Assembly: GCF_035920345.1 (NCBI RefSeq)
Contig: NZ_CP109149.1
Location: 4,216,001-4,280,000, forward strand
Source: Nocardia vinacea
GTDB taxonomy: Bacteria; Actinomycetota; Actinomycetes; Mycobacteriales; Mycobacteriaceae
Length of the DNA: 64,000 nucleotides
Direction: 5' to 3'
This document shows positions 4,630 to 55,364 of the stretch, piece by piece (the stretch's first letter is position 1; each line of letters opens with the position of its first letter). A program made the translations under genes and the position numbers. The notes under the pieces were generated by a model. It searched no databases and was not told the origin of the DNA. It was given only the letters and a program-made list of their open reading frames with translations.

Positions 4630-4645
4630 TTCCCTGCAATGGGAA
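4630..4645. promoter_or_regulatory. TTCCC-N6-GGGAA box 1 (pknG)
   Basis: TTCCCTGCAATGGGAA, extended to a 7-bp arm dyad over 4628-4647, ends 70 bases before the pknG start. The same core with the same six-base spacer occurs eight more times, all at ESX-region promoters. Confidence 0.65.
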
Positions 4646-4648
4646 TAG

Positions 4649-4679
4649 CTCCGCCCCGGACATGTTGTCCGGGGCGGAG
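4649..4679 (-). terminator. Hairpin terminator of the permease gene
   Basis: A perfect 14-bp GC-rich stem (CTCCGCCCCGGACA with its complement) with a 3-base loop lies 10 bases past the permease stop codon. There is no strong T-run after it. Confidence 0.7.
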
Positions 4680-4689
4680 ATCGGATTAT

Positions 4690-6219
4690 TTACTCCTCGT
4701 CAGGCTTGTCGAGAACGACGACCGTGTCACTCTCGCGGCGCGGCCGCTCGGCCAGCACCGGGAACTGACCGGTGATGCCCTCACGTTCCTGCGCCACCTG
4801 CAGCACCCGCCTGCGGGCCAGGAACCAGCCGCCGACGAATGCCGGAACCACGACCACCGCCATGGCGATAACAGCACCGCGCTGCTCGATTTCGTGGCTG
4901 CATGCCATCAGCACGATCACCGCGACCAGGAACACCAGCGTGGCGTAGCTGGTGTAGGGCGCGCCGATCAGTCGGAACGACGGACGTTCGATCAGCCCCT
5001 TCTTCGACCAACGGAACAGCTGCAGCTGGCAGATCACGATCGCGCCCCAGGCCGCGATGGTGCCGAGTGCGGACATGTTCAGCACGATCTCGAATGCCTT
5101 GTCCGGCACCATCGCGTTGAGCCCGACACCGACCAGCGCGATCGCACCGGTGGCGAGGATGCCGACGTAAGGCACACCGCCGCTGGACATCCGCGAGGCG
5201 ATCTTGGGCGCACTACCGTTCATCGACATCGAGCGCAGGATGCGGCCGGTCGAGTACAGGCCGGCGTTGAGGCTGGAGAAGGCCGCGGTCAGCACCACCA
5301 GATTCATGATCGAGCCGGCACCGCCGACACCGAGCTTGGAGAAGAAGGTGACGAACGGGCTCTCACCGGACTTGAAGACGACGTAGGGCAGCAGCAGGCC
5401 GAGCAGCACCAGAGAGCCGACATAGAACAGCGCGATGCGGGCGATGACCGAATTGATGGCCCGCGGCATGATCTTTTCCGGATTCTCCGCCTCACCGGCG
5501 GCCGTGCCGATCAATTCCACTGCGGCGTAGGCGAATACGACACCCGTGGTAACAGTGACCAGCGGCAGCAACCCGGTTGGGAACAGCCCGCCGTTATCGG
5601 AGATAACGTTGAAACCTGTGGTCTCACCGTCGACCTTGAAACGGCCCGCCAGGAAGATGGTGCCGATGATCAGGAAGGCGACCAACGCGACGACCTTGAT
5701 CAGCGCGGCCCAGAACTCCAGCTCACCGAACCATTTCACCGAGATCAGGTTGATGCTGACCACGATGGCCAGCGCCACCAGCGCGATCAACCACTGCGGT
5801 ATCGCCTCGGTGGCTCCCCAGAAATGGACATAGGTGGCGATCGCGGTGATGTCTACGATGCCGGTCATGCACCAGTGGAAGAAGTACATCCACCCGACCG
5901 CGAAAGCCAGCTTCTCGCCGTAGAACTCACGCGCGTAGGAGACGAACGATCCGGAGGACGGACGATGCAGCACCAGCTCGCCCAGCGCCCGCAGGATGAA
6001 GAACACGAAGATGCCGCAGACCGCGTACACGATGAACAGTCCGGGACCGGCCGTGTGCAAACGACCACCCGCACCAAGGAACAGTCCGGTCCCGATCGCG
6101 CCACCGATCGCGATCATCTGCAGCTGGCGCGGGCGCAACGCCTTGTGATAGCCCGCATCCTCAGCATGCAGAGCGTCCGCGGGCGCCGGCACTTCCGCGG
6201 AGTGTTGAACGGTTGTCAT
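4690..6219 (-). CDS. Amino-acid permease (APC superfamily)
   Basis: This is a cytoplasmic-membrane amino-acid importer of the AAT group within the APC superfamily. [13 protein letters not shown] in the first membrane segment and ALGEL in the third are family signatures, and about twelve hydrophobic helices fill the 509 residues. [26 protein letters not shown] and the following AAGEAENP are typical of GabP/AnsP/CycA-like members, but the substrate cannot be read from the sequence. The ATG at 6219 is chosen because GAAAGG lies eight bases upstream; an in-frame GTG at 6234 overlaps that site. A 26-bp palindrome lies 39 bases upstream. The same palindrome precedes glutamate dehydrogenase, suggesting joint control of amino-acid uptake and glutamate breakdown. 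Confidence 0.9.
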
Positions 6220-6258
6220 GGTGAGGCCTTTCACGTGACGGCGATCATATCGCTGCTT

Positions 6259-6284
6259 AATGTATCGCTATTCAACGGCACGTT
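6259..6284. promoter_or_regulatory. 26-bp palindromic operator, copy B
   Basis: AATGTATCGCTA, TT, CAACGGCACGTT. It differs from copy A at only two of 26 positions and lies 39 bases before the permease start. Confidence 0.6.
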
Positions 6285-54624: not shown

Positions 54625-54671
54625 TGCTCGATCAGACCCTTTCCCGCCGCTGTTCTCAACATTGTCGATCC

Positions 54672-54687
54672 TTCCCAGTGCTGGGGA
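54672..54687. promoter_or_regulatory. TTCCC-N6-GGGAA box 7
   Basis: TTCCCAGTGCTGGGGA, one mismatch in the right arm. It lies 47 bases before the EspK-like copy 2 gene. The rest of the 54625-54913 divergent gap shows no further element. Confidence 0.6.
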
Positions 54688-54913
54688 TTCAGAATCGCGC
54701 CGGACCACTGACCGCGAGAATCCGTAAATGTATGCAGCACAAGCTATTTCGTGCTCGCAACTGAACAAACTCCCAGCTACGGGGAAATCCGCATCGGCCG
54801 AGTGAGGCAGCCGGTCCATAATCGGCGGACAGTAGTGCCGAGGCGCTGCGGGCGAATCCCGCCGATCGGGTGCCCGACCCGCGCCGACGACTAGTACGAG
54901 GTGGGAGCCGGCA

Positions 54914-55345
54914 GTGGATCAATGGGAACGCGAAAGCCTCCGGTCGGCGAACAACGGCATGCGCAACCAGATCGACTACATCATGGATGTCTACGAGAAG
55001 CAGCAAGCCCAGCTCGCCGAGATCCAGCAACAAGTGGACGCGCTGCGCGCACGGGCCAGTTCATCCGATCAGTTGGTCGAAGTGACCGTGGACAGTGCCG
55101 GAGTGGTTACCGACGTGCAATTGACCGCGCAGGCGATGCGCGCCAAGCCGGAAAATGTCGGGCGGGCGATTGTCGAGGCCGCACAGGCGGCGGCGCGGTC
55201 GGCCCGCTCGCAGCATGATGCGCTGATCGCGCCGATCGTCGATATCACCGAGCTCATGCCCGATCTGCCCGATCTGGTACCAGGGTCGCCGAGCTGGCGC
55301 GATGCCCGTGAATCCGCCGAAAACGACGGTCCGCGCGCCGACTGA
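54914..55345 (+). CDS. YbaB/EspL-like protein, copy 2
   Basis: A 143-residue protein with the full YbaB/EbfC fold: coiled-coil helix IMDVYEKQQAQLAEIQQQVD, the strand pair VEVTVDSAGVVTDVQLTAQA and the second helix AIVEAAQAAARSARSQ. It matches EspL of ESX-1 in size. GGGAG lies about eight bases before the GTG. It is divergent from EspK-like copy 2, forming an EspK/EspL-type pair like that at 47.7-50.1 kb. Confidence 0.75.
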   Translation: MDQWERESLRSANNGMRNQIDYIMDVYEKQQAQLAEIQQQVDALRARASSSDQLVEVTVDSAGVVTDVQLTAQAMRAKPENVGRAIVEAAQAAARSARSQHDALIAPIVDITELMPDLPDLVPGSPSWRDARESAENDGPRAD

Positions 55346-55348
55346 ATA

Positions 55349-55364
55349 CTCCCACCGTTGGGAA
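55349..55364. promoter_or_regulatory. TTCCC-N6-GGGAA box 8
   Basis: CTCCCACCGTTGGGAA, one mismatch in the left arm, 51 bases before the 55416 gene and just past the YbaB-like stop. Confidence 0.6.

Follow-up and report, generated by a model that had tools for sequence, protein, structure and literature searches.

We analysed a 64,000-nucleotide stretch of the Nocardia vinacea genome (the window; NCBI RefSeq assembly GCF_035920345.1, contig NZ_CP109149.1, positions 4,216,001 to 4,280,000 of the forward strand), in which a 16-base inverted repeat, TTCCC-N6-GGGAA (the dyad), recurs ahead of genes of an ESX (type VII secretion) cluster and ahead of a pknG paralog linked to that cluster. Dyads are concentrated in this part of the genome, lie between genes and recur at orthologous promoters of other Nocardia species, in support of the ESX-plus-pknG regulon that a first-pass annotation of the window had proposed. 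Comparison of the loci points to a small XRE-family helix-turn-helix (HTH) protein, encoded directly behind eccE and here called XRE, as the candidate that very likely binds the dyad; the dyad itself is likely to be a double-stranded promoter operator that XRE reads and that defines a regulon.

The window features that carry the argument are listed below. Promoters were inferred from sequence, and the offset is the number of bases from the end of a dyad to a -10-like box.

2139..4559, minus strand: pknG paralog with PknG_TPR, Pkinase and PknG_rubred domains; likely revised start
4630..4645, minus strand: perfect dyad before the cluster-linked pknG; -10-like GAGAAT at 4593-4598, offset 31
4690..6234, minus strand: amino-acid permease gene (AA_permease) upstream of pknG
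22322..23407, minus strand: F5/8-type-C domain gene (F58C), from the domain scan
23453..23468, minus strand: perfect dyad between XRE and F58C; -10-like TACGAT at 23415-23420, offset 32
23477..23830, minus strand: XRE-type HTH gene, 117 amino acids, GTG start, directly behind eccE; candidate regulator (HTH_3, E 7e-5)
23844..39072, minus strand: remaining ESX core, namely eccE, mycP-like subtilase, eccD, ParA-like ATPase, espG, two small unassigned genes, PPE, PE, eccC and eccB
33032..33349, minus strand: PE gene, first behind eccC
33428..33443, minus strand: perfect dyad before PE; -10-like TAGCGT at 33417-33422, offset 5
39078..40838, minus strand: eccA (T7SS_EccA1_N, AAA); likely revised TTG start
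40912..40927, minus strand: perfect dyad before eccA; -10-like TATCTT at 40873-40878, offset 33
43785..43800, plus strand: perfect dyad between the divergent u44 and nlpC-type genes; GACAAT for u44 at 43806-43811, offset 5
49722..49737, minus strand: two-mismatch dyad before the EspC-like gene 47677-49674; AACAAT at 49711-49716, offset 5
50256..50271, no strand assigned: perfect dyad between YbaB-like and FAD-binding-domain genes; none of the usual offsets has a -10-like box
54672..54687, minus strand: one-mismatch dyad before the EspC-like gene 52729-54624; GACAAT at 54661-54666, offset 5
55349..55364, plus strand: one-mismatch dyad flanked by a YbaB-like gene and by the gene at 55416; none of the usual offsets has a box

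Abundance, placement and sequence of the dyad

The nine dyads that had been reported at first pass (4630, 23453, 33428, 40912, 43785, 49722, 50256, 54672 and 55349) are all present, six of them as perfect copies, those at 54672 and 55349 with one mismatch and that at 49722 with two. The expectation that exact copies would be rare by chance was borne out, with six in the window against 0.02 expected from 100 dinucleotide shuffles. Dyads with two mismatches were rejected as evidence: the window holds 36 matches against 26.6 expected, which makes the loose form alone weak. Because that form barely exceeds expectation, counts use perfect sites, or one-mismatch sites that obey the spacer rule given below. 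Three further one-mismatch matches lie at 1672, 22857 and 46872, the last two within predicted genes. The copy at 1672-1687 is a possible tenth site; it obeys the spacer rule, lies between a MerR gene and the rightward gene that follows, and has a TANNNT box at offset 31.

The whole genome (10.36 Mb, a single contig) contains 17 perfect copies against one match to a reversed-pattern control, and 224 dyads against 67 when one mismatch is allowed. These copies are not evenly spread, since six of the 17 fall in the window, which is 0.6% of the genome (P = 6e-10). Nor are they equally common inside coding regions: 13 of the 17 are intergenic, the other four (L016, L017, L026 and L027) lying within genes according to our own gene models. 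Two of these coding copies, L016:5001-5016 and L017:5001-5016, sit in a same-sized gene in two similar gene runs and have reverse-complementary dyad sequences; they therefore probably represent one inherited copy.

The longer consensus suggested at first pass, TTCCCAnCGnTGGGAA, fails. What the copies have in common is a purine (R) at spacer position 1 and a pyrimidine (Y) at position 6, a combination found in 15 of the 17 own copies and in 64 of the 78 perfect copies in XRE-positive loci of other Nocardia, where roughly a quarter would be expected. The sequence rule is TTCCCR-N4-YGGGAA, the inner four bases being at most loosely constrained. Symmetry of the flanks is slightly raised (0.46 or less at the first position outside the dyad, where 0.31 is expected, and similar at the second) in 89 sites with at least one R or Y match, a set that omits one site with neither R nor Y and also L016, L017, L019, L026 and L027.

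Conservation at orthologous promoters

Conservation was followed in ESX-cluster stretches of 20 other Nocardia (L089-L108), in a second stretch for 18 of these 20 (L109-L126), in the surroundings of XRE in two more genomes (L127 and L128) and in control stretches. Dyads recur before eccA, eccB, PE, F58C, the nlpC/u44 pair, EspC-like genes and pknG. All 19 loci for which the eccA region was available, the window included, have a dyad there (13 perfect, six with one mismatch). Promoter rows were listed for dyads with no mismatch, or with one mismatch together with R and Y, that lie within 260 bases of a modelled gene start; they number 6 for eccB, 11 for PE, 14 for F58C, 17 for nlpC, 14 for u44 and 14 for EspC-like genes. 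Across species the arms are constant while the spacer letters vary. In L089-L128, 77 of 78 perfect copies are intergenic, though gene interior makes up 88% of the bases, and with all own-genome copies the figure is 90 of 95. No perfect dyad occurs in the control stretches, which number 20 (L129-L148) and total 161 kb.

Gene starts were taken from a codon-usage gene caller, which misplaced at least those of eccA and pknG. Of the distances of 28-78 bases to a start codon given at first pass for most dyads, the 28 bases to eccA (minus strand) rest on an ATG at 40883; alignment of orthologues favours the TTG at 40838, 73 bases from the dyad. Orthologue alignment and sequence likewise make the ATG at 4559, 70 bases from the dyad, the likely start of pknG.

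The pknG paralog and its upstream gap

The pknG gene of the window had been taken for the ordinary one and is in fact a cluster-linked paralog: the genome has three pknG-like genes, the other two being 56% and 50% identical to the window copy. A dyad occupies the gap between the permease gene and pknG in all 19 XRE-linked loci (16 perfect, two with one mismatch, one with two), 36-57 bases past the permease stop codon. Two loci without the permease-pknG pair, L106 and L107, stand outside these 19; L106 has a dyad before pknG and L107 has none there. In unlinked permease-pknG gaps a dyad was found in none of nine, three of which come from genomes with XRE elsewhere, and 11 stretches upstream of other pknG copies likewise contained no dyad.

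Canonical PknG is encoded in a glnX-glnH-pknG operon. The window gene likewise has all three PknG domains; it follows an amino-acid permease gene, whereas canonical pknG is preceded by a few other genes. The genes ahead of canonical-type pknG copies we take to be glnH-like. A large NAD-glutamate dehydrogenase gene (16530-21476) separates the cluster from the permease-pknG pair, as it does in most of the fetched XRE-positive loci, and near the pknG paralog a protein kinase is fused to WD40 repeats (7675-9666).

XRE and its co-occurrence with the dyad

XRE matches HTH_3 with 23.2 bits against a cut-off of 23, a Cro/CI-type HTH just above threshold. Its structure model (pLDDT 81) is helical and matches many XRE structures; the ortholog alignment has 30 rows. 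All 29 genes modelled between 21586 and 60746 were scanned, and XRE alone among them is a classical HTH protein; one YbaB-like small protein (54914-55345) scores above its Pfam cut-off. A gene with an HTH and DUF5753 at 12459-13304 was rejected as the regulator: the closest relative is without that stretch, its glutamate dehydrogenase gene following right behind the band-7 gene.

Strong XRE orthologs are found in 39 of 59 Nocardia genomes; one genome with a weak match (G012; 42%, E 2e-6) was counted as XRE-negative. The number of perfect dyads per genome has a median of 16 (range 7-28) in the 39 XRE-positive genomes and of 4 (0-9) in the 20 XRE-negative ones, with a reversed-control mean of 1.0 for the comparison (P 9e-10, although such P values are optimistic because related species are not independent). 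The eccA gene of the cluster (at least 76% identity) is present in 38 of the 39 XRE-positive genomes and in none of the 20 XRE-negative ones. The remaining genome, G043 (L127:9498-10205), has XRE without the cluster eccA, and there is no ESX match in the fetched flanks. Upstream of its XRE lies a dyad followed by TAGCGT, a promoter of the PE type, and behind XRE a dyad with TACGAT at offset 32 precedes a MerR gene; we read this locus as the remnant of a lost cluster.

Promoter geometry

Over 304 flanks, the -10-like boxes form one peak at offset 5 (55 flanks) and another at offsets 31, 32 and 33 (34, 33 and 16 flanks), with a lesser peak at 41 (21 flanks); most other offsets hold 1-13 flanks each. 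The two preferred distances divide the promoters by gene. Offset 5 is used by PE (11 of 11), u44 (13 of 14) and EspC-like genes (11 of 14), and offsets 30-33 by pknG (12 of 12, at 31-33), eccA (11 of 19, at 31-32), eccB (4 of 6, at 31) and F58C (11 of 14, at 30-32). Row sequences end at the modelled start, so that eccA rows with an early start, that of the window included, cannot show a box at 31-33. Boxes for nlpC (CATAGT) stand at varied offsets. In the window, seven of nine dyads have a box against a background of 2.4% per flank, the pattern having been picked after seeing the data and widened to admit AACAAT at the 49722 dyad.

With the box set at -12, the centre of the dyad falls near -52 for eccA, eccB, pknG and F58C and near -25 for PE, u44 and EspC-like genes. 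A search for a -35 box gave nothing better than shuffled sequence in either class (2.2 versus 2.6; 2.2 versus 2.4). Extracytoplasmic function (ECF) sigma factors recognize a GGGAAC-like -35 box. The dyad was rejected as such a box, as its GGGAA falls near -20 or -47 and not at -35.

Relatives in other genera

XRE relatives occur in 20 of 251 genomes of the family, three of them outside the genus. In one of these, G102 (L231:9684-10325), a 213-residue protein with two XRE-type HTH regions is encoded behind eccE; the fused chain is possibly a built-in dimer. The locus has GTCCCA-type dyads before an EspC-like gene and behind eccC. G072 has an XRE of 80% identity and 20 dyads against one control match genome-wide. 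The G102 genome also contains a GTTCCA-type dyad (L239:10645-10660) inside a much longer palindrome with AT-rich flanks.

Model and alternative explanations

A symmetric pair of XRE molecules would bind TTCCCR-N4-YGGGAA, and the bound protein would act by touching RNA polymerase; contact with polymerase is favoured over simple blocking because the spacing between dyad and box is steady. The two distance classes may mean two modes of action, and we give roughly even odds to activation in the -52 class combined with repression or a second activation mode in the -25 class. PE is the start and XRE the last gene of one same-strand run. Since XRE thus ends a gene run behind a dyad-bearing PE promoter, it probably controls its own level by feedback. 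PknG has a role in glutamate metabolism. Taken with the linkage of the permease, the PknG paralog and the NAD-glutamate dehydrogenase, this role leads us to conjecture a tie to the glutamate state of the cell. In its fullest form the model would make XRE, a protein with no evident dimerization domain, the master switch, with two modes of action, of an ancestral system of the ESX-1 type. Through one operator it would govern machinery, kinase and F5/8C genes from -52 and substrate-like, PE/PPE and its own promoters from -25, coupling secretion, within a single regulon, to glutamate state by way of the permease, the PknG paralog and the NAD-glutamate dehydrogenase, with a fused two-HTH form and a shifted outer base running the ESX locus in another genus; we regard this extended version as speculative and rather doubtful.

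Several observations weigh against XRE as the reader of the dyad. Its structure model stops soon after the HTH (last helix 107-110), with no evident dimer domain. XRE-negative genomes still exceed the reversed control (median 4 against a control mean of 1.3), the ranges of dyad counts in XRE-positive and XRE-negative genomes overlap at 7-9, and co-occurrence alone cannot separate XRE from its neighbours, because 38 of the 39 genomes with XRE also have the cluster. Dyads behind XRE are asymmetric in several species, and such dyads are under-counted because of the mismatch and start-distance limits set for promoter rows. Boxes also gather at offset 0, in 19 of 304 flanks, which the model does not explain. 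Among the relatives, the eccA gap of G102 has the two-mismatch form only, and of 12 matches to KTCCCR-N4-YGGGAM in that genome (one in the control) two resemble a repeated stretch. In G072 no dyad with at most one mismatch lies in the 3.9 kb around XRE. G250, with eight matches against three in the control, has an ESX-linked relative and no clear dyads, and a search of its ESX locus for repeated 5-base dyads gave nothing with more than two copies.

It is also possible, though we think it the less likely course, that XRE simply acts as a repressor at every site, its own operon included, which some signal lifts, the spacings then reflecting shared promoter ancestry. Many of the structures closest to its model carry titles that name repressors (TP901-1 CI, SinR, DdrO), the inferred dyad positions of about -60 to -18 are ones where a bound protein could block polymerase, and XRE sits within a dyad-controlled gene run. 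Blocking, however, requires no exact spacing, yet offsets 5 and 30-33 are kept, the latter across different promoters, and -35 boxes no better than shuffled suit activator-dependent promoters, although weak -35 boxes are frequent in actinobacteria. An RNA hairpin in the transcript, either a terminator or a leader element, would fit the long arms at 23453, 33428 and 50256 and the copies that follow a stop codon; it is nevertheless very improbable, as symmetry beyond the 16 bases is barely above expectation in the 89 sites and no Rfam match reaches the gathering score in the window. Moreover, the dyad would not be transcribed from its box, because the box lies downstream of it.

The dyad might instead belong to the MerR-family regulator encoded next behind pknG (828-1562), whose MerR domain has an E-value of 1e-19 and whose gene is present in all 39 XRE-positive genomes and in G043 adjoins XRE and a dyad. 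Proteins of the MerR family bind near -25, which resembles the offset-5 class, while the -52 class is left unexplained by such binding. The gene occurs in 45 of the 59 Nocardia genomes, six of which have no strong XRE. In those six an ortholog with the same recognition region stands beside permease-pknG, yet none of the six gaps has a dyad, and these genomes hold 0-9 dyads each. G102, in turn, has dyads but no MerR match above 35-37%. We therefore consider a MerR operator improbable and retain XRE as the candidate. As a separate observation, MerR paralogs at 828-1562 and L022:1588-2295 flank the cluster about 100 kb apart, and many XRE-positive genomes have two copies.

Comparison with known systems

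EspR of Mycobacterium tuberculosis (Rv3849), a regulator of ESX-1, is encoded separately from the ESX cluster. In the parts of PMC3315491 consulted, EspR is described as dimerizing through a C-terminal domain and as having a consensus of the TTTGC type. The 117-residue XRE has no evident domain of this kind behind its HTH, and the dyad arms here are TTCCC. EspR chains align to the XRE model over about residues 3-84 of 131; unrelated XRE proteins match equally well, and EspR does not stand out in the structure comparison. A sequence search of the PDB with XRE returned one other chain only at E of at most 1.

Phage lambda CI is an activator at one promoter and a repressor at another. Regulators of the phage-CI type resemble XRE in pairing a small HTH protein with a symmetric operator and, likely, with autoregulation; the difference is that the setting here is a chromosomal secretion cluster, whose many promoters fall into two classes by their distance to the -10 box. 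A transcription factor with its operator is an ordinary kind of arrangement, apparently undescribed in this system, and the two-distance geometry is unusual.

The window shares eccA to eccE, a mycP-like gene, espG, PE and PPE, in ESX-like operon order, with the ESX-1AN cluster of Nocardia. According to the portions of PMC4791881 consulted, that cluster branches just beyond the mycobacterial ESX-1 clade, is found in N. cyriacigeorgica and N. brasiliensis and is absent from N. farcinica, and neither a regulator nor an operator is described for it there. XRE was found in N. cyriacigeorgica; the 69 named loci include neither N. brasiliensis nor N. farcinica. The part of PMC3388012 consulted holds nothing on the TTCCC-N6-GGGAA dyad, and among the literature matches listed no title or abstract shown names the dyad, the XRE regulator, or any regulator of a Nocardia ESX system that is encoded within the cluster and has a defined operator.

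With its length of 16 bp and its favoured promoter geometry, the signal allows the regulon to be predicted in Nocardia genomes, where dyads can flag secreted substrates, and it links a PknG-family kinase to type VII secretion. That the linkage is also seen in another genus suggests that a switch of their own was carried by some ancestral clusters of the ESX-1 type, unlike the separately encoded EspR.

Dyads and genes beyond the core set

Seven intergenic perfect copies lie outside the window. Several genome dyads stand beside genes without a visible link to secretion, and some of those outside the window may be chance occurrences. The perfect copies, and two one-mismatch copies, are as follows.

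L024: perfect dyad between a second eccC and EspC/PE/PPE genes
L021: perfect dyad near a DUF4226-transglycosylase gene
L018: perfect dyad behind an acyl-CoA thioesterase gene
L023: perfect dyad between FAD-binding and desaturase genes
L025: perfect dyad behind an S30AE-type gene
L022: perfect dyad between an AMP-binding enzyme gene and an IS605-type gene
L028: perfect dyad about 0.9 kb from a sigma-70-family (ECF-like) gene
L020: one-mismatch dyad between an acyl-CoA dehydrogenase gene and a WXG100-like gene
L021: one-mismatch dyad before a TcpC-type conjugation gene (17335-18345), about 37 kb past the window end; TANNNT box at offset 32

Within the window, the gene at 57376-60471 encodes a protein that begins with a WXG100-like region and ends in a HopA1-type domain; it is likely a secreted protein of the cluster.

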